A stretch of DNA of 64,000 nucleotides. It comes from Sulfurimonas sediminis (GTDB lineage Bacteria > Campylobacterota > Campylobacteria > Campylobacterales > Sulfurimonadaceae). The notes below the pieces were generated by a model that was not told the DNA's origin, did no database searches, and saw nothing but the letters and a program-made list of their open reading frames with translations. Positions 15,690 to 23,661 of the stretch are shown here, one piece after another. A program made the translations under genes and the position numbers. Position 1 is the stretch's first letter; the number at the start of each line of letters is the position of its first letter. Where the stretch lies: contig NZ_CP041235.1 of assembly GCF_014905115.1 (NCBI RefSeq), positions 1,364,001-1,428,000 of the forward strand, given 5' to 3'.

Positions 15690-17426
15690 TTACTGAAGAT
15701 GTTTTAAAAACGCTTCCGGTTCTATAAACCCTACAATTGTTTTGGATTTCTCTACATGTAAATCTTTGTCAAAAAAGATCATTACAGGAGGACCAAAAAC
15801 ACCATATGCCTTGCTGAGTGCCTTTTCTTTTGCACCGTTTGCCGTAACATCTGCGCGAATCAGGACATACTCACGTAGTTTTTCTTTTACTCTCGGGTCT
15901 GCAAAAGTCACCTCTTCAAGTTCTTTACAGGCTGTACACCAGTCAGCTGCAAAATCAAGCATTATTTTTTTACCTCTGTTTTTTTCTAACAAAGTATTGA
16001 GCTCATCCAATGAGGTTACTTCTGTAAATGTCAGCTTTTTCTCATTTGAAGGAAGTACTGTGCCCGCTGCCTGTGATTTTAAAAATCCAAGTGGCTGTTT
16101 TATACTTGGTGCGCCCGCCAAAACACTCATAAAAAGTGTCGAAGAGTAGATAAACAACAGTAAGGACAGACTCCGCTTGAAACTGTGTCCCTCTTTGTCA
16201 AAGGCTCCAAAATGGACACTGAATCCTATTCCGACAATTGCATACATCAGAGTGGTAACAGAAGATGGCAGTACTTTTTCAAGCATCCAAATAGCAACAC
16301 CCAACATTAATGCGCCAAAAATTTCATTGACCATAACCATCCACGGACCAGGCTTAGGCATAAACTTACCGGCACTTACACCGACCAGAATAAGTAAAAC
16401 CCCCATTCCTATACTCATACTGAAAAGTGCAGCTCCGCCTAAAAGTGCATCACCCGTTTGTCCTATGTATACCAAAGCACCTGCCAAAGGAGCAGCAACA
16501 CAGGGACCGACAATAAGTGCTGAGAGAAATCCCATAATGGCTACACCTATAAAACCGTTACGATTTGTATTTGTACTGACTTTGGTTACAAGTGCATCAG
16601 GAAGTTTCAATTCATAAAAACCAAACATACTTGCAGCAAGAGCAACAAAGATACCTGCAAAAGAGTAGACAACCCATGGATTTTGCAGTGCGGCTTGCAA
16701 ATTAGCTCCAAAGACTCCTGCTAAAATACCTGCGATTGTATAGGCAACAGCCATTGCAAGTACATACACCAAAGAGAGGGCAAAAGCTTTTTTTGTCGTA
16801 AGTCCTTCTCCCTGCGAAATTATTACACCGGAGATTATAGGAATCATTGGAAAAACACAGGGAGTCAGAGAGAGTAAAACGCCAAACCCGAAGAATGTTG
16901 CCAAAATAACGAAGAAACTGCTTGATTTTATTGTATCTGCTATAGAGTCAGTCTCTGACTTTTCTTCTGCCTTTACATGTAAAGCATTATTTTCAGCAGA
17001 GAGCTTGTCTGCATCTATTTGAAGAGTAAACTCTTTTGTACTGGGTTCATAACACAGTCCCTGCTCCGAACATCCCTGGAAAGAGATTTTCAATTTTATT
17101 GTTTGCATCCCTTTCAAAGAAGCATCTTTTTTCAATGTAACAATAAAATTCGGTGACTTGATATAAACTTTGTCACCCTGATGCTCGGATGTAGCAGGCT
17201 TTGTGATGTTTTGTATTGACAAACCTTTTGCATCAATCAGTTCAATTTTTAATTTATCAGCATACAGATAAATATCTTTGGCGATTTTCACACCTGTTTC
17301 TATCTGCATTGACTCATTGACTTTGGCATAAGGTTTAAATGCCTCATCAGGCATTAAAAAAGCAGCTGCATTTACAAAAGAAAAAACCAGAGTCAAGATA
17401 AAAAATATTTTTGCCAATAGTCTCAT
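15690..17426 (-). CDS. dsbD: Thiol:disulfide interchange protein DsbD
   Basis: 578 residues from the ATG at 17426, which has an AAAAAGGA site upstream and opens a signal peptide (MRLLAKIFFILTLVFSFVNA); a longer in-frame start would extend into the upstream repeat. The N-terminal domain has the redox cysteine pair (GCSEQGLCYEP), then eight membrane segments with TPCVFPMIPI and GPCVAAPLAG, then a thioredoxin domain with CTAC. DsbD moves electrons from cytoplasmic thioredoxin to periplasmic acceptors. Here it would feed cytochrome c maturation for SoxA/X and the CQYC protein. A 30-nt gap links it to the sensor gene, and a structured element lies upstream. Confidence 0.93.
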   Translation of the reverse strand: MRLLAKIFFILTLVFSFVNAAAFLMPDEAFKPYAKVNESMQIETGVKIAKDIYLYADKLKIELIDAKGLSIQNITKPATSEHQGDKVYIKSPNFIVTLKKDASLKGMQTIKLKISFQGCSEQGLCYEPSTKEFTLQIDADKLSAENNALHVKAEEKSETDSIADTIKSSSFFVILATFFGFGVLLSLTPCVFPMIPIISGVIISQGEGLTTKKAFALSLVYVLAMAVAYTIAGILAGVFGANLQAALQNPWVVYSFAGIFVALAASMFGFYELKLPDALVTKVSTNTNRNGFIGVAIMGFLSALIVGPCVAAPLAGALVYIGQTGDALLGGAALFSMSIGMGVLLILVGVSAGKFMPKPGPWMVMVNEIFGALMLGVAIWMLEKVLPSSVTTLMYAIVGIGFSVHFGAFDKEGHSFKRSLSLLLFIYSSTLFMSVLAGAPSIKQPLGFLKSQAAGTVLPSNEKKLTFTEVTSLDELNTLLEKNRGKKIMLDFAADWCTACKELEEVTFADPRVKEKLREYVLIRADVTANGAKEKALSKAYGVFGPPVMIFFDKDLHVEKSKTIVGFIEPEAFLKHLQ

Positions 17427-17445: not shown

Positions 17446-17737
17446 AATAAGTGCCTAGCCAGCATAAATGACATATTTAACAACATACAAAGGATTTAGT
17501 TTCAAGGCGAACTTTTGTTGGCGATACGAGTATCGTTAACGAAGTTCAACGCAGAAAATGAATCCTTTGTGTGTTGCCCTTCGGGTGAAGAAAAAAAATA
17601 CAATCTAACTTCGTTGAAAACCCTTGTACCCAAAGGGCATAGCAAAAGCTACTAGTAGCTCCTACGGATTTTCGCCTTGTATCTTGCATTTTCTCTCTTC
17701 ATTAAATTATGTCATTTATGCTGGCTAGGCACTTATT
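17446..17737 (-). repeat. Structured interspersed element, copy 1 (leader of dsbD)
   Basis: A 287-bp element bounded by about 30-bp inverted termini (AAGTGCCTAGCCAGCATAAA at the left; its complement at the right). Inside are nested inverted repeats: ACATACAAAGGATT with AATCCTTTGTGTGT, CGATAC with GTATCG, a small CCCTTCGGG hairpin, the palindrome GCTACTAGTAGC, and CAAGGCGAA with TTCGCCTTG, giving alternative folds. It is about 95% identical to copy 2 at 21420-21708 in reverse orientation. Its inner edge lies exactly 22 nt before the dsbD ATG. No open reading frame is carried, so it is not an insertion sequence by itself; a MITE/REP-type or RNA-leader element is likely. Confidence 0.9.
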
Positions 17738-17763
17738 ACATTTTTGTGTGTATTCTCTGTGTA

Positions 17764-17769
17764 ATTGTA
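17764..17769 (-). promoter_or_regulatory. Possible -10 box for the dsbD leader
   Basis: On the minus strand TACAAT (preceded by GAGA) lies about 27 nt upstream of the element's outer end. Transcription from it would place the whole 287-bp element in the dsbD 5' leader. This is only a sequence match in an AT-rich region. Confidence 0.3.
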
Positions 17770-17806
17770 TCTCATAAATATAAAATTTGTGTTAATAAAA
17801 ATATAT

Positions 17807-17812
17807 TATAAT
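17807..17812 (+). promoter_or_regulatory. -10 box for the BFD-like gene
   Basis: A consensus TATAAT lies 31 nt before the ATG at 17843, with an AAAAAGG ribosome-binding site between. The surrounding 100 nt are strongly AT-rich, as is usual for housekeeping promoters in Campylobacterota, which often lack a -35 box. Confidence 0.5.
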
Positions 17813-17842
17813 TCCATATAAAAGAAAAAGGTTTATAAAAAC

Positions 17843-18064
17843 ATGATAGATTTAGATACTGAGATATGTGTATGCAATTCACTGACTCTAAAAGATATAG
17901 CTGAGTGTATAAAAGAAAATAACTTTACCACCCTTGAGGAACTCCTGGAAAATGACATATGCCCTATGGGTGATAAATGTGAATCATGCAGAGATGAAGG
18001 GTATCATAACGACGGACTCAACCTCCCGATGGTTTTGGCAATGGTAAAAAGAAAACAAATCTAA
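17843..18064 (+). CDS. Small BFD-like [2Fe-2S]-binding protein
   Basis: 73 residues. The CVC motif at 9-11 and CPMGDKCESC at 40-49 resemble the cysteine pattern of bacterioferritin-associated-ferredoxin domains (CxC ... CxxC), with the helical KDIAECIKENNFTTLEELL between. Such domains bind a [2Fe-2S] cluster and serve in iron mobilisation or as modules of larger redox enzymes. Its partner is not obvious here. A TATAAT box and good ribosome-binding site support expression. It is followed at once by a hairpin repeat that may act as its terminator. Confidence 0.75.
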   Translation: MIDLDTEICVCNSLTLKDIAECIKENNFTTLEELLENDICPMGDKCESCRDEGYHNDGLNLPMVLAMVKRKQI

Positions 18065-18065
18065 A

Positions 18066-18220
18066 GAGCACCTCCAATGCCATTAAGTTAAAAAAATTAA
18101 TGCTTTCTCGGAACCGGTACTTCAGTGCCGGCTGTTGCAATAGTCTTGCCACTCTCAGCCGGCACTGAAGTACCGGTTCCAAATAAATGCTTAACTTAAA
18201 TGGCATTGAAGGGCACTTCT
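18066..18220. repeat. Long hairpin repeat, intact copy
   Basis: The core is a perfect 24-bp inverted repeat (18110-18133 and 18157-18180, starting GGAACCGGTACTTCAGTGCC) around a 23-nt loop, much more GC-rich than its surroundings. Outside it a second imperfect inverted repeat continues (CCAATGCCATTAAGTTAA at the left; its near complement at the right). Degenerate relatives of stem and loop occur at 28052-28256. It lies between convergent genes, where a REP/BIME-like or MITE-like element could also work as a two-way terminator. Confidence 0.88.
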
Positions 18221-18225
18221 CAATA

Positions 18226-20817
18226 TTATTTTTGCACATCTTTTGGTATGACTATGGTAAAAGTTGTACCAAACATAGAGGTTTTCACACTGATACTCCC
18301 ACCAAACTGTTTTTCTATAATCATTTTGGACATATAAAGCCCAAGTCCTGTGCCATTTTTGCCTTTCGTAGAAAAATAGGGTTCAAACAACTTGGACAAG
18401 TATTCTTTTCTTATCCCTCCGGCTCTGTCAGTCACATCAATCTGAATATTTGGACCGTTTTGTTTACATGTAACCTTTATGATTTTATCTTCTGTTTTCT
18501 TGTTTTCGTAGGCTTCAATGGCATTGTTTAACAGATTCAGTAAAACCTGTATCAGTTCATTTGCATATACATTTGCATGCAACTCAGAATCACATTCTGT
18601 TTGGAGTTCAATTTTATTTGACTTGAGTCTTGGCTCAACAAATTTTATCGCTTTTTTGAGCAATCCTCTCATGTCACTCTCTTGAGCAGCTTTGTTTGGG
18701 CGAAAATATGTCTTAAAATCCTCAATAGTATCGGAAAGATACACAACAGAATCGCTGATATCTTCCAAAGTCTGCATAATATCCTCTTTGGAAATTTGTT
18801 GCCCCATAAGATATTTTAACTGTAAATTTGAGATTTGAAGCGTAATTGTATTTAAGGGCTGGCGCCACTGATGGGCAATCATGCTAATCATTTCTCCCAT
18901 TACAGCCTGTTTTGACTGTGCCGTCAGAATTTCATCTTTTTTAATCAGTTCTTTTGCTTTTTCCTGTACTTTGTGTTTTAAAATTTCATTTGTTTCTTGC
19001 AGTTCTTTTGTTTTTTGCTGCACTCTTTGTTCAAGCGCTACATTGAAGTTTTTCAATTTCTTTTGATAATAAATCATAATAAAAAAAATGATTGCAACAA
19101 CCCCTAAAACCATCCATAAAAGAAAATAATCAACCCTTTCATGGTACCGTGTGAGTCTCCAGCTGTTTTTTATTGCCTCTATCTTCTCTTTAGAAAGACT
19201 TTTTAAAGCTTTTTGCATAATTGAGTACAAAACCGGTTCATCCTTTTGTACACCGATACTTCCATGCAGCAGCCTCTCTTTTGCCAGGAACCCATTGATT
19301 TTCAGCTTGCCGTATCCATACTTGTCTATAAAATAGTCAGCCTGTTCGTCTATAGATGCTATAGCATAGGCTCTGCCGTCAAGCACTTTTTTCACCATTG
19401 TATTTTTATTCTCTTCCACTTCAATGTTTAAATAGGGATACAGATAATTTAAATAATTTTTAAATGAGTTTTTTTGCACCAGTAACAACTTTCCTTTTAA
19501 AAACAGAGGATTTTCAACGAAAGATTTGTCAAGTCTGCTTAACAATGTAAAATGGGTACTGCTGAGAGGTTTTGTCGGTCTGATAGTAGTAAAGTGTCTG
19601 TTGTTTGTTGCCATAATGGCAAGAAGTTTGCACTTTTTTTCTTGCAGTTTTTGAAACAACTCTTCTTCTGAGTGTGATTCTACAGGAATAAATTCAAAAC
19701 CTGTTTTATTGGCAATCATTGTAAACACATCAGCCATAATGCCAATGTGCTTACCGTCTTTATATCCGTCAATCGGAAAAAAATCATAATTTATACACAA
19801 AGGTATTTTTTTATGCACCTCTATATATCTTTGTTCCTCATCTGTCAATGTAAGTCCGTTTATCCCGGGCTTTACAATAAAATTATCCAGTGTTTTTCCC
19901 GCACCCACATGAAAATCATTTTTAAAAAGCTGCATCTGTTTATGCAGGAAGTTTTTGTCTATGGAACCTATGTCATATATAAAAGGCAGTACCAGTTTGT
20001 TGATTGTTTCTGCCTCATATTCCAATGTCTCTTTGTCAAGCTGTGGCGCATATTTTTCATGAATGATTTTGGCAATCTCTTTTCTGTGCGAAAGAGCATA
20101 CTCCCAGCCTTTTATGGAAGCTTTTTTAAAAGCATGCACCCGGTATGGATGGTTTTTCAGTTCAGCAGCGGAGGTAAAGAGTTCCTCCTGCAAAACAAAC
20201 AGATTGTCATTTGAGGGATCCAGAATATTATATTTTACACCGAGTTTGTCAAGCTTGTGAGGCTGATCGGAAATAAAGGCAGTCATAGCATCGACTTCAC
20301 CCTTTGCAAATTCATCTACACGGTATGTTTGCGGAACCATTTTAAGATCACTTATCTTTACACCGTATCCGTCAAGATAAGGTTTGAAATTGAGCCTGAA
20401 ATCATCAACAAGCGAAGACATGACTGTTTTACCGATCAGATCTTTGGGAGAATGAATAGAAGGCTGCGTAATAAGCACAAGTGCGGAGCGTTTAAAAAAA
20501 GATGCCAGCAAAACCAGGGGTTTCCCCTGCAGATACTCCAGTAAAATAGAAGAGTTGTAAATACCGTAATTTGCTCTTTGTGAGAGAACCTCATCAACAA
20601 CATTCATCCCAGTCTGGTACTCTTTGATCTTAACATCCAGACCGGCATCCCGGTAAAATCCCTTCTCTTTGGCGGCAATAAATCCCGCAAACTCAAACTG
20701 GTATTTCCAGTGGAGCTGTAAAGAGACTTTTTCCAGGGCATCTGCAGCATGTCCGCGGTTTGTATCGGCTTGTGCGAAACCGCATAAAAAGAAGAGTATC
20801 AATATGAAAAATCTCAT
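18226..20817 (-). CDS. Hybrid sensor histidine kinase with two periplasmic binding domains
   Basis: 863 residues. After a signal peptide (1-17) comes an NMT1/THI5-like solute-binding domain (about 30-290; LQLHWKYQFEFAGFIAAKEK), then a second SBP family-3-like domain (about 310-540; LTDEEQRYIEVHKKIPLCIN). A membrane helix follows at about 562-582, then a coiled coil (590-640), the phosphoacceptor segment IAHQWRQPLNTITLQ (His near 650) and an ATPase domain (NNAIEAYEN, DRAGGI, GTGLGLYMSKMI). NMT1-type domains bind pyrimidine or thiamine-like ligands or other small molecules. No cognate response regulator is adjacent. It overlaps the start region of the next gene by 4 nt. Confidence 0.9.
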   Translation of the reverse strand: MRFFILILFFLCGFAQADTNRGHAADALEKVSLQLHWKYQFEFAGFIAAKEKGFYRDAGLDVKIKEYQTGMNVVDEVLSQRANYGIYNSSILLEYLQGKPLVLLASFFKRSALVLITQPSIHSPKDLIGKTVMSSLVDDFRLNFKPYLDGYGVKISDLKMVPQTYRVDEFAKGEVDAMTAFISDQPHKLDKLGVKYNILDPSNDNLFVLQEELFTSAAELKNHPYRVHAFKKASIKGWEYALSHRKEIAKIIHEKYAPQLDKETLEYEAETINKLVLPFIYDIGSIDKNFLHKQMQLFKNDFHVGAGKTLDNFIVKPGINGLTLTDEEQRYIEVHKKIPLCINYDFFPIDGYKDGKHIGIMADVFTMIANKTGFEFIPVESHSEEELFQKLQEKKCKLLAIMATNNRHFTTIRPTKPLSSTHFTLLSRLDKSFVENPLFLKGKLLLVQKNSFKNYLNYLYPYLNIEVEENKNTMVKKVLDGRAYAIASIDEQADYFIDKYGYGKLKINGFLAKERLLHGSIGVQKDEPVLYSIMQKALKSLSKEKIEAIKNSWRLTRYHERVDYFLLWMVLGVVAIIFFIMIYYQKKLKNFNVALEQRVQQKTKELQETNEILKHKVQEKAKELIKKDEILTAQSKQAVMGEMISMIAHQWRQPLNTITLQISNLQLKYLMGQQISKEDIMQTLEDISDSVVYLSDTIEDFKTYFRPNKAAQESDMRGLLKKAIKFVEPRLKSNKIELQTECDSELHANVYANELIQVLLNLLNNAIEAYENKKTEDKIIKVTCKQNGPNIQIDVTDRAGGIRKEYLSKLFEPYFSTKGKNGTGLGLYMSKMIIEKQFGGSISVKTSMFGTTFTIVIPKDVQK

Positions 20818-21314
20818 TCTCTGCCTTTTAAAAATTTTAAAACTGATTCAAAATCACCTTCTATAATTTTTGTAGAACAGGAGAGCATTAGATTCAGCGG
20901 ATAATCAAAATCTTCTATCACTCTTGCATCCAGATCATAAAAAGATCCCTCTTTGGCAAATCTTTCATCTTCTGCAAACCTGTCGATATAATGAGAAGAA
21001 TCACTTAAATACCCGTATACTTCTTTGTTCAGTCCATAGGCATATCCACACTCAAAAACAGTTCCGCTGTCAGGCTCTTTTCCTCGAAAAGGATTTAAAT
21101 TGGCTATCACTGTGTCAGCCTCTTGTATCATCTTTATATTTGCATCAAATATATCCTGTGCTATCTTATGTTTTGTTTGTGAAAAATCGACAACATTATC
21201 CAAAGGATAAAGGCCCTGGTAGCCATACTTTTCACATAATTTGACCAGGTTTTTACCGATCTCTATAGAATTAACTTCAAATACATCAGGTCCGGCTATA
21301 TAGATTTTTTTCAT
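20814..21314 (-). CDS. Nucleoside 2-deoxyribosyltransferase
   Basis: 166 residues. The N-terminal KKIYIAGPDVF, the QEADTVIANLNPFRG segment, and PDSGTVFECGYAYGLNKEVYG with the catalytic Glu are characteristic of the family that exchanges bases between deoxynucleosides or hydrolyses damaged deoxynucleotides. It is upstream of and overlaps the hybrid kinase gene, so the two share a transcript; linking a nucleobase-related enzyme with a kinase carrying an NMT1 (pyrimidine-type) domain is suggestive but unproven. Both sit in the segment bracketed by the 287-bp repeats. Confidence 0.9.
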   Translation of the reverse strand: MKKIYIAGPDVFEVNSIEIGKNLVKLCEKYGYQGLYPLDNVVDFSQTKHKIAQDIFDANIKMIQEADTVIANLNPFRGKEPDSGTVFECGYAYGLNKEVYGYLSDSSHYIDRFAEDERFAKEGSFYDLDARVIEDFDYPLNLMLSCSTKIIEGDFESVLKFLKGRE

Positions 21315-21419
21315 ACAATACTCTGTTCACTAAATTCAACACTATTGTATCATGTTTTTATATAAGTTGTGTAAATTTCATGCTTAAGCAAAGCATCAGC
21401 CCTTTTTTCATACCCTACA

Positions 21420-21708
21420 TAAGTGCCTGACCAGAATAAATGACATAATTTAATGAAGAGAGAAAATGCAAGATACAAGGCGAAAATCCGTAGGAGCTAC
21501 TAGTAGCTTTTGCTATGCCCTTTGGGTACAAGGATTTTCAACGAAGTTAGATTGTATTTTCTCTCTTCACCCGAAGGGCAACATACAAAGGATTCATTTC
21601 CTGCGTTGAACTTTCGTTAACGATACCAGTATCGCCAACAAAAGTTCGCCTTGAAACTAAATCCTTTGTATGTTGTTAAATATGTCATTTATTCTGGTCA
21701 GGCACTTA
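21420..21708 (+). repeat. Structured interspersed element, copy 2 (leader of the YyaL-like gene)
   Basis: An inverted copy of the element at 17446-17737, about 95% identical. Its termini read AAGTGCCTGACCAGAATAAA and the complement. Three positions differ from copy 1 at the left end, and the matching three differ at the right end, so the terminal stem is still perfect. The element ends 22 nt before the ATG at 21730, the same distance and orientation as copy 1 has toward dsbD. With copy 1 it brackets a 3.7-kb segment. The remaining 21315-21419 stretch is AT-rich and holds only the promoter region of the deoxyribosyltransferase gene, with nothing else recognised. Confidence 0.9.
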
Positions 21709-21729: not shown

Positions 21730-23661
21730 ATGTCAAACAGATTAGCAAACGAAGATTCTCCATACCTGCAGCAGCATAAAGACAATCCCGTGGACTGGTG
21801 GCCGTGGTGTGAGGAGGCTTTTGTTCAGGCAGAAGCCCAAAACAAGGCAATTTTTATCAGCATAGGCTACAGTTCCTGTCACTGGTGCCATGTTATGGAA
21901 GAAAAAGTATTTGAAAACAAAGAGTGTGCTCAGATTTTAAATGAGAACTTTATTTCCATAAAAGTGGACAGAGAAGAGCGTCCGGATATAGACAAGTATT
22001 ATCAGGAAGTTTATATGCTTTTAAACCGCCGTGCCGGTGGATGGCCGACGAGTATATTTTGTACACCACAGAACAAACCCTTTTTTGCAGCCACTTACAT
22101 ACCGCCTGAATCAAATTCTGGCAGTATAGAAGGTATGGGTTTTAAAGAGATTACACAGCTTATAGCAACAAAAGTAAAAGAGAAAGATCCCAAACTCTTT
22201 GAAAATGCCAATGAAATAGAAGGCTTTTTGGGTCAAAAAGAGCATCCAAAAGAGGCGACTGTATTAAAAGAGGAATTTTATAAAAATTTTCTGCTCCAAG
22301 CCAAAAACAATTATGACGCACAAAACGGCGGTTTTTCAGATAAACCAAAATTTCCACGTGCTTCAACTCTTGATGCTCTACTCGTTGTTGCAAGACTCTA
22401 CAATGATACCGATGCGAAAACAATGCTGACCAATACACTCAATAACATGATAAAAGGCGGTATGTATGATCTTGTAGACGGAGGATTCTGCCGTTACAGT
22501 GTAGATGAAAAATGGCTGGTACCGCATTTTGAAAAGATGCTCTATGACAATGCCCTGCTCTGTGGCATCTACACAAAAGCCTATTTGTTATATGAAGATG
22601 AAACATATTTGCATATTGCAAAAGAGACAGCAGACTTCTGGTACAACTTTATGAGTGAAGATGGACTTTTTTACAGTGCAAGTGATGCTGACAGTGAAGA
22701 GGGAGAGGGAAGCTACTTTGTTTATACCTATGATGAAGTGTACACGCTTCTTGTTCAAAGTGGATATGAAAATGCAAAAGAGATGTGTGAGACGATGCAT
22801 GTTACGCATCACGGAAATTTTGAAGGCAAAAATATCATTCGTTTTGAGGAAGAGATTCCTGCATGGTTCAGTGATGTAAAACCACTTCTACAAAAAATTC
22901 GACAAAAAAGAGACTACCCCTTTACAGACAAAAAAGTACAGACATCATGGTCGGGTATGATGATAAACGCTCTGTTTTTGCTTGGAACTGTAGATAACAA
23001 GTACAAAGAAAAAGCCATAAAAAGCCTTGATAAGCTTCTTGAAACACTCTTTATTGATGAAAAGCTGTATCATACGACACTTATACACAAAAAGCCAAAA
23101 GTCGAAGCTTTTTTGGAAGACTATGCATTTCTTTCACAGGCACTTCTGAGCGCTTTTCAATACACACAAAATGAAATCTATCTCATACATGCCCAACGGT
23201 TTGTCAACAAAGCATTAGAAGAGTTTTATGACAAAGGAGTGTGGAACTTCAGTAGCGGCGAATTTGCTGTCAAAGCCGAAATAACCGATACAACATATAC
23301 AAGTTCCGTCAGTATTATGATAGATGTTCTACAAACACTGGGAACACTTCTTGAAGATGAAAAATATACTCATTTTGCCTTTAAAACAATGGAATACAAC
23401 TCTTATGAACTCGGGCGTAAGCCAATTTACTACCCCTCTATGCTTATACAGGCTTTACGATATCTCAAAGGGGACAGAGTTATAAAAACAAGCGAACAAA
23501 ACATTGACAACTACGCGTACAAACTGGCAAAAATAAAATATCCGTTCATACTGTTAAAAAGAAGTGAAAGGGATGATTTTATGATATGCGGAGACAAAAG
23601 CTGTTTTGCAAATACACAGGATGTGGATAAGATTAATCAACTTGTTGAGCAATCTCTCTAA
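21730..23661 (+). CDS. YyaL/SSP411-family thioredoxin-fold protein
   Basis: 643 residues. The N-terminal domain shows the family signature [22 protein letters not shown], the thioredoxin-like motif SSCHWCHVM (C50, C53), and [13 protein letters not shown]. The rest is an (alpha/alpha)6-barrel resembling glucosidases or cellobiose epimerases ([21 protein letters not shown]-type segment; [17 protein letters not shown]). The family is widespread in bacteria and eukaryotes but its reaction is unsettled; a redox role is suspected. An AAGAAGG ribosome-binding site precedes the ATG immediately after the repeat. Its 3' end overlaps the convergent CHAD gene by 29 bp. Confidence 0.9.

Follow-up and report, generated by a model that had tools for sequence, protein, structure and literature searches.

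The 64,000-nt stretch of Sulfurimonas sediminis DNA analysed here (the window) contains two nearly identical structured elements, one in front of dsbD and the other in front of a YyaL-like gene of the DUF255 family. Our analysis indicates with high confidence that these twin elements belong to a non-autonomous miniature inverted-repeat transposable element (MITE) of the IS630 type and were inserted recently, and that they are not a dedicated redox switch. They carry IS630-like terminal inverted repeats that have a partner in another genome of the genus, they occur as dispersed, non-orthologous copies, and they lack a transposase gene of their own. Moreover, a TA is duplicated on insertion, as seen from single-TA sites in the relative G011 at dsbD and at the site of a further copy, L004.

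A preliminary description of this DNA had reported two matching structured elements before the two genes; both are present and are about 95% identical to each other. Their bounds, refined from the inverted ends, are listed below. From start to finish the ends read TAAGTGCC...GGCACTTA, and all 26 of 26 outer positions are complementary in each copy. The folding energy was computed for copy 2 of the two and amounts to -81 kcal/mol for the DNA fold, compared with -25.5 +/- 3.9 for shuffled sequences, none of which (0/200) folded as well. No open reading frame of at least 80 amino acids lies wholly inside either element.

17448..17735, minus strand: MITE copy 1, 288 bp, with end A (17448) towards dsbD and end B at 17735 (inverted ends; uninterrupted single-TA site in the relative G011)
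17448..17475, unstranded: terminal inverted repeat, 28 nt, end A of copy 1 (26/26 outer positions complementary)
17708..17735, unstranded: terminal inverted repeat, 28 nt, end B of copy 1
21420..21708, plus strand: MITE copy 2, 289 bp, end B at 21420 and end A at 21708 facing the DUF255 gene (inverted ends)
21420..21447, unstranded: terminal inverted repeat, 28 nt, end B of copy 2 (over 28-30 nt, 86-90% identity between the copy 2 ends and the ends of an IS630-family element in genome G127)
21449..21569 (approximate), plus strand: hairpin arm 1 of copy 2, which contains the core CAAGGCGAA...GGAGCTACTAGTAGC (DNA fold; core common to classes II and III, see below)
21570..21578, plus strand: CCCGAAGGG mini-hairpin between the arms of copy 2, at 17577-17585 in copy 1 (sequence and fold)
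21579..21678 (approximate), plus strand: hairpin arm 2 of copy 2, related to arm 1 in inverted form (DNA fold; opposite-strand arm-to-arm matches of hidden Markov models)
21681..21708, unstranded: terminal inverted repeat, 28 nt, end A of copy 2 (likeness to the G127 IS630-family element ends)

The two window copies are closer to each other than to the rest of their class in the genome, copy 1 being 95% identical to copy 2 and 88, 86 and 76% identical to the other three copies. Both also carry a 19-nt insertion in arm 1 that these three lack. An insertion of about 19 nt at the tip of arm 1 (similar to TTTGCTATGCCCTTTGGGT) is also present in L152 and L153, elements with other ends in the genomes G118 and G054.

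Mobility and IS630-type ends

The genome of S. sediminis holds five full-length copies of the window element class. Across the genus, 62 of 135 genomes, our own included, gave a match at E <= 0.001, a count for which five candidates were scored per genome and in which some matches span the core alone. The inner-core pattern was found in 66 stretches of a named genome collection, all of them titled Sulfurimonas, Sulfuricurvum, Helicobacteraceae or Campylobacterales. Plasmid and phage collections gave no match to the elements at blastn sensitivity, and an origin from a plasmid or phage was rejected for this reason.

A partner for the ends was found in genome G127, where we read eight insertion-sequence copies of 1064-1070 bp that start and finish with TAAGTGCCTAACCAAAATTAATG[A/T]CATA (two of these, L057 and L058, are possibly one insertion split over two contigs). 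Translated pieces of one copy match HTH and DDE_3 domains and also the NCBIfam IS630 model, in the latter case, as pieces, below the cut-off, which was passed by G127 copies in the genus-wide search. Over 28-30 nt, this IS630-family element and copy 2 have ends that are 86-90% identical. The likeness between MITEs and insertion sequences is confined to the ends and extends over at most about 50 bases including them; elsewhere only chance-level matches of 11-21 nt were seen. We therefore rejected an origin of the MITEs as simple deletion derivatives, since four MITEs compared with five insertion sequences showed no interior similarity. Furthermore, at least 20 of the 26 outer positions are complementary in 79 of 81 delimited copies even though the end sequence itself varies; two further copies could not be delimited.

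The nearest relative found, G011 (DsbD 93% and DUF255 protein 97% identical), allowed a comparison with sites before insertion. Its dsbD site is uninterrupted, with one TA where copy 1 sits in our genome, and the site corresponding to L004 is likewise uninterrupted, with a single TA and identical bases around the join. The copy upstream of nadA (L003) is also absent from G011, which has TG there instead of TA. Because G011 is uninterrupted at dsbD and is without the element at three of the four remaining sites, those of L003 and L004 among them, the insertions look recent. According to this interpretation, an IS630-family transposase would act in trans, bind the 28-bp inverted ends, insert the element at a TA and duplicate this TA.

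Several observations weigh against a recent, IS630-driven origin of the twin elements. G011 offers no clean empty site for copy 2, since another palindromic element lies upstream of its DUF255 gene, and the fifth copy of our genome (L005) could not be compared across its junction. No autonomous partner with ends of the window type (class I) was found in the genome of S. sediminis: a search for the end pattern with up to three mismatches returned just the ten ends of the five MITE copies, and the three intact-looking IS630-family copies in this genome bear ends of another class. Moreover, an ancestral insertion at dsbD that was common to a further relative, G079, and was then lost in G011 is conceivable, though less probable than separate insertions. 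Finally, the gene context in our genus-wide sample resembles chance, with 48 divergent, 63 tandem and 14 convergent sites among the 125 with a clear assignment, compared with 38%, 54% and 8% of TA sites.

The dsbD and DUF255 loci

The two genes next to the elements are:

15690..17426, minus strand: dsbD (protein-disulfide reductase), 21 nt from copy 1 (NF001419, 512 bits)
21730..23661, plus strand: DUF255 / Thioredox_DsbH (YyaL-like) gene, 21 nt from copy 2 (PF03190, 221 bits)

The dsbD product, which starts at 17426 on the minus strand, combines DsbD_N, DsbD_TM and Thioredoxin_2 domains. As first described, the two copies have one orientation relative to their genes, with the end here termed A facing the start codon, and the intervening gap contains candidate ribosome-binding sites (AAAAAGGAC and AAGAAGG) that are native by appearance. 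The gap is equal at both genes, as had been stated, but measures 21 nt and not 22 nt. From the agreement in orientation, distance and product type it had been argued that a chance landing was not to be expected. The agreement itself is real; its distance and product-type parts carry less weight than was assumed. The equal distance is less remarkable because 21 nt is an ordinary member of a distance cluster in subclass I-GTGCC, where, with the window copies included, end A lies within 30 nt of a start in 13 of 39 copies (at 10, 13, 15, 15, 17, 17, 18, 19, 20, 21, 21, 21 and 26 nt). The shared thioredoxin fold is no independent evidence either, because dsbD and the DUF255 gene are old neighbours: synteny places them divergently in many relatives, with about 100 bp between them in G087 and distances within about 2 kb in G024, G032, G062, G137, G139, G005 and G134, while larger distances occur elsewhere (42 kb in G001, 19 kb in G020).

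Elements at these loci are rare in the genus. One precedes dsbD in 2 of 20 genomes examined (our own and G079) and the DUF255 gene in 1 of 21 (our own). Of the 30 loci fetched per gene, 20 for dsbD and 21 for the DUF255 gene entered a test that counted elements up to 450 nt before the gene at loci with at least 150 nt of upstream sequence; by itself it gave 1 of 19 for dsbD (our own genome), G035 being too short. When the class I model was run against all 60 loci, it matched only in our genome, in G079 and in G100, the last about 1 kb from a paralogue. In G079, an element without arm 2 (L203, on another contig) ends 18 nt upstream of the dsbD start in the same orientation as the window copy. 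Its flanks suggest the use of another TA about 10 nt away, and this insertion is probably independent of copy 1. Overall, the conservation upstream of orthologous genes or within one pathway that characterises cis-regulatory RNAs was not found at these loci.

At both genes, the element may have landed in the short untranslated stretch between a putative upstream promoter region and the native ribosome-binding site, where an insertion would do little harm: 21 nt may be close enough to the gene to leave the promoter intact and distant enough to leave the ribosome-binding site intact. The elements would then probably be transcribed as a structured 5′ leader with the native ribosome-binding site untouched, and their effect on dsbD and the DUF255 gene could be small or nil.

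An alternative, which we consider unlikely, is that the MITE has been exapted at both genes as a promoter, an RNase III site or a modulator of translation. Both copies lie in a probable 5′ untranslated region, and effects on transcripts have precedents in ERIC, Correia/NEMIS and BIME elements (PMC3049150, PMC2229807). Four promoter-like sites were predicted around copy 2, compared with 1.9 +/- 1.2 in shuffled sequences, but around copy 1 the scan gave a single site where 2.1 were expected. Scans for an outward promoter in the element ends, which would have matched the promoter function suggested in the preliminary description, gave nothing clear; all of these scans rely on the sigma-70 consensus only. 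Exaptation is further disfavoured by the absence of the insertions from the nearest relative found, which makes them probably young, and by the lack of long-term conservation in the genus loci examined. The preliminary description had itself listed an exapted MITE as its second reading. The MITE part of that reading is borne out by the ends, the TA target, the empty sites and the copies, and exaptation is retained only as a rival explanation.

One core with different ends and its placement before gene starts

The window element is part of a larger family. Of 20 isolated core matches fetched, most have the same design with other ends, namely an end stem, an arm with the CAAGGCGAA... core, a mini-hairpin and a second arm. 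Besides class I, we distinguished class II with ends TAAGTACCTYTCC... or TAAGTCCTTAGTC..., to which a few unclassed ends were assigned by default, as well as class III with TACCAAATGCAGC... or TACCAATCCCC... and class IV with AAGGGCACCTCTAAAAACCC... Further unclassed ends (TTGAACCCTATGAATAC, TATACACATCCCAC and similar), which are counted under class II by default, were noted in L142, L173 and L178. Among five subclasses, the ends have a mean identity of 0.44 and the core one of 0.72, the latter figure being favoured by the fact that the copies were found via the core. A class II representative can be aligned with one of class III along about 160 nt (73%); by BLAST, class I shares about 36 nt with class II and about 32 nt with class III, and matches of hidden Markov models are longer.

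Three kinds of ends match IS630-type elements in a comparison that covered classes I to III, class IV and the AAGGAC branch of class II being outside it. Apart from the class I partner in G127, a class III end (L184) equals the end of an IS630-type element in G019 (17/17 nt), and the ends of two class II copies of our own genome match those of its three 1126-bp IS630-family copies (L341-L343) over up to 28/28 nt. These two copies are:

G000:C1 2025877-2026144: L249, class II element, own genome
G000:C1 598981-599252: L359, class II element, own genome

Placement was analysed for 141 delimited elements derived from 171 core hits (three with poor end pairing were dropped and hits on both strands merged). 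This sample consists of fetched core matches, which are part of all places listed in the genus, and excludes five delimited copies without the core pattern (L090, L091, L123, L124 and L127). Genes were called with a simple codon-usage caller, the element being masked except for its terminal TA. As a null we used 3877 non-coding TA sites in 508 kb, with a start codon -1 to 4 nt away from 8.6% of them and 5 to 30 nt away from 21.5%; the p-values assume independent copies, which holds only roughly.

Class I elements lie close before starts more often than these TA sites do. In subclass I-GTGCC, 19 of 39 copies are found 5-30 nt before a start where 8.4 are expected (p = 1.5e-4), and none lies within 4 nt; for the other class I elements the count is 14 of 37, with 7.9 expected (p = 0.017). 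Among the I-GTGCC copies that reach to within 30 nt of a start, 13 do so with end A and 6 with end B, so that an orientation preference is not significant (p = 0.17). Class II elements lie even closer: of 39 callable copies, 19 are at -1 to 4 nt, where 3.3 are expected (p = 7e-11). Without filtering, this placement was seen in 20 of 43 class II and 0 of 78 class I copies (Fisher 3e-11), and after removal by hand of likely same-site orthologues in 17 of 40 and 0 of 75 (Fisher 1e-9).

A placement of the MITE by chance, without relation to gene starts, would agree with the occurrence of both orientations in the genus, with sites between convergent genes and with context shares near those of random TA sites. 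We nevertheless regard it as improbable in view of the excess at 5-30 nt in class I (19/39 vs 8.4 and 14/37 vs 7.9) and at -1 to 4 nt in class II (19/39 vs 3.3). The search of our own and related genomes for downstream genes and distances, which had been proposed as a check of the preliminary description, thus gave a divided answer: the varied genes speak against its view, and the excess close to starts is in line with it. Similarly, many further copies at random positions and orientations had been named as the outcome that would tell against it. Many copies in both orientations and beside varied genes were indeed found, but their placement close to starts is not random.

The 163 genes whose starts face an element form 12 clusters with more than one member, several of which represent the two sides of one intergenic region or close relatives. 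Recurrent target genes (nadA/plsY, gap/nadD and others, names that are readings of protein starts) were dropped as a candidate finding, since a rough, informal estimate suggests that chance could yield about as many among 141 elements. Elements between plsY and nadA were seen in three genomes (L003 in our own, L029 in G079 and L034 in G081), and the TA used by L003 apparently differs from that used by L029 and L034.

The class II elements near starts also have a preferred orientation. Near a start (within 30 nt), end A is the closer one in 22 cases and end B in 4 (p = 5e-4), and in tandem contexts the direction is B to A in 19 of 23 (p = 0.003); class II orientation was read from matches to the class I model, which score only 48-81 bits there. 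A Shine-Dalgarno match of at least 4 nt is present in 52 of 86 class II ends and in 2 of 156 class I ends. Among the 20 close class II insertions, the best match has at least 4 nt in 15 and is just AGG in 5, with a spacing of 5-11 nt to the start. Of the two copies in our own genome, L249 has no adjoining start codon, and L359, which is outside these counts, is separated by about 8 nt from the ATG that opens a long reading frame. The simplest account is one of survival, in which elements inserted between ribosome-binding site and start persist only where their end brings a substitute site. This account is challenged by class IV, in which 18 of 20 ends have a 4-nt match and yet none of 7 callable copies is a close insertion (0.6 expected), and by the bare AGG in many I-GTGCC ends. 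Moreover, with two nearly identical ends, a preferred orientation has to depend on some feature in the interior of the element. Regulation by class II elements is not claimed here.

Tentatively, we suggest that the lasting unit of this family could be the inner two-arm core, which may have hitch-hiked with successive IS630 lineages by adopting their terminal repeats. The class II branch might then act as a portable ribosome-binding site that sits in a preferred orientation a few bases before starts in operons, replaces the native site and is perhaps a mobile structured leader.

Further palindromic sequences were noted along the way. At 18062-18222, between the genes of a BFD-like ferredoxin and a sensor kinase, the window contains a different MITE-like element (ends ...CAATGCCATTAAGTTAA / TTAACTTAAATGGCATTG...). 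G011 does not have it at that site, and a relative of it lies upstream of the G011 DUF255 gene. An apparent relative also interrupts a class I element in a nested insertion (L026, G069:C24, match at 1501). In G072, three pairs of class I ends (L071, L072 and L131) span 47-60 nt with no core between them and are possibly minimal elements or excision remnants.

DNA palindrome, RNA leader and comparison with known elements

Summed over the 141 copies, 2999 of 3102 positions match between the two 22-nt ends, and pairing is about 97% Watson-Crick. When an RNA structure is kept on one strand, G-U pairs should be tolerated and A-C pairs lost. In pairs predicted on both strands, the ratios of G-U to A-C departures are 81:63 in class I, 65:50 in class II, 20:17 in class III and 12:9 in class IV, or 178:139 over the four classes. 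These nearly equal numbers speak against selection on an RNA leader, and the slight G-U excess leaves room for a weak effect at the RNA level. A strong G-U bias (312:80 in class I and 331:53 in class II) was set aside because the structure had been predicted on that same strand; it nearly disappeared once the count was limited to pairs found on both strands. Rfam gave no match within the elements, even at E up to 1, and three matches outside them at 18103-18188 were far below the gathering scores.

The preferred idea of the preliminary description, a cis-acting, riboswitch-like or redox-sensing RNA leader that controls translation of thiol genes, could draw on the shared end and 21-nt distance at both genes, the very stable fold, the enrichment close to starts and the probably independent element before dsbD in G079, but is very improbable given mobile elements with varied neighbouring genes, the presence at dsbD in only our genome and G079 and at the DUF255 gene in 1 of 21 genomes, the nearly balanced G-U and A-C departures and the lack of an Rfam match in the elements. 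An effect of the mobile element on expression through a structured 5′ leader is possible because start-proximal placement is enriched.

ERIC sequences are about 127 bp long. Our elements occur in different taxa and differ from ERIC in length. They share with ERIC the form of a palindromic intergenic element, and effects of ERIC on transcripts depend on orientation (PMC3049150, PMC2229807). Correia/NEMIS of Neisseria, with forms of 107 and 155 bp, are MITEs as well, and their transcribed hairpins have been proposed to be RNase III substrates (PMC3049150, PMC2229807); this likeness is one of description. The repeat unit of pneumococcus (RUP), 107 bp long and proposed to be mobilised by IS630-Spn1, is described as a small palindromic intergenic element with IS630-family-like ends and a TA target, as in our case (PMC2229807, PMC3049150). 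In contrast to RUP, our elements are mostly 258-272 bp long (160 of 171 delimited by script) and 288/289 bp in the window, have two inner arms and share a core that recurs with several different ends. By length they thus differ from RUP as a pneumococcal sequence of about 107 bp. Moreover, RUP is overrepresented between convergent genes, whereas our elements are enriched close before starts. With the IS630-family insertion sequences of the genus they share the ends and not the interiors. Broader literature searches also pointed to a Thiomargarita paper with MITEs (PMC4853749). In the open-licence PubMed Central papers searched, we found no paper on the present family or one that ties IS630-type MITEs to ribosome-binding sites.

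Recognising the twin elements as mobile DNA keeps them from being taken for a redox riboswitch. The family also represents a natural experiment on the survival of mobile DNA in compact operons. The spacer that separates the ribosome-binding site from the start codon is often taken up by elements with a Shine-Dalgarno-like sequence in their ends; class I elements, nearly all of which lack it, were not seen there in our sample. If it is true that the core stays recognisable while the ends track different IS630 lineages, this would be an unusual way for a non-autonomous element to outlast its helpers.

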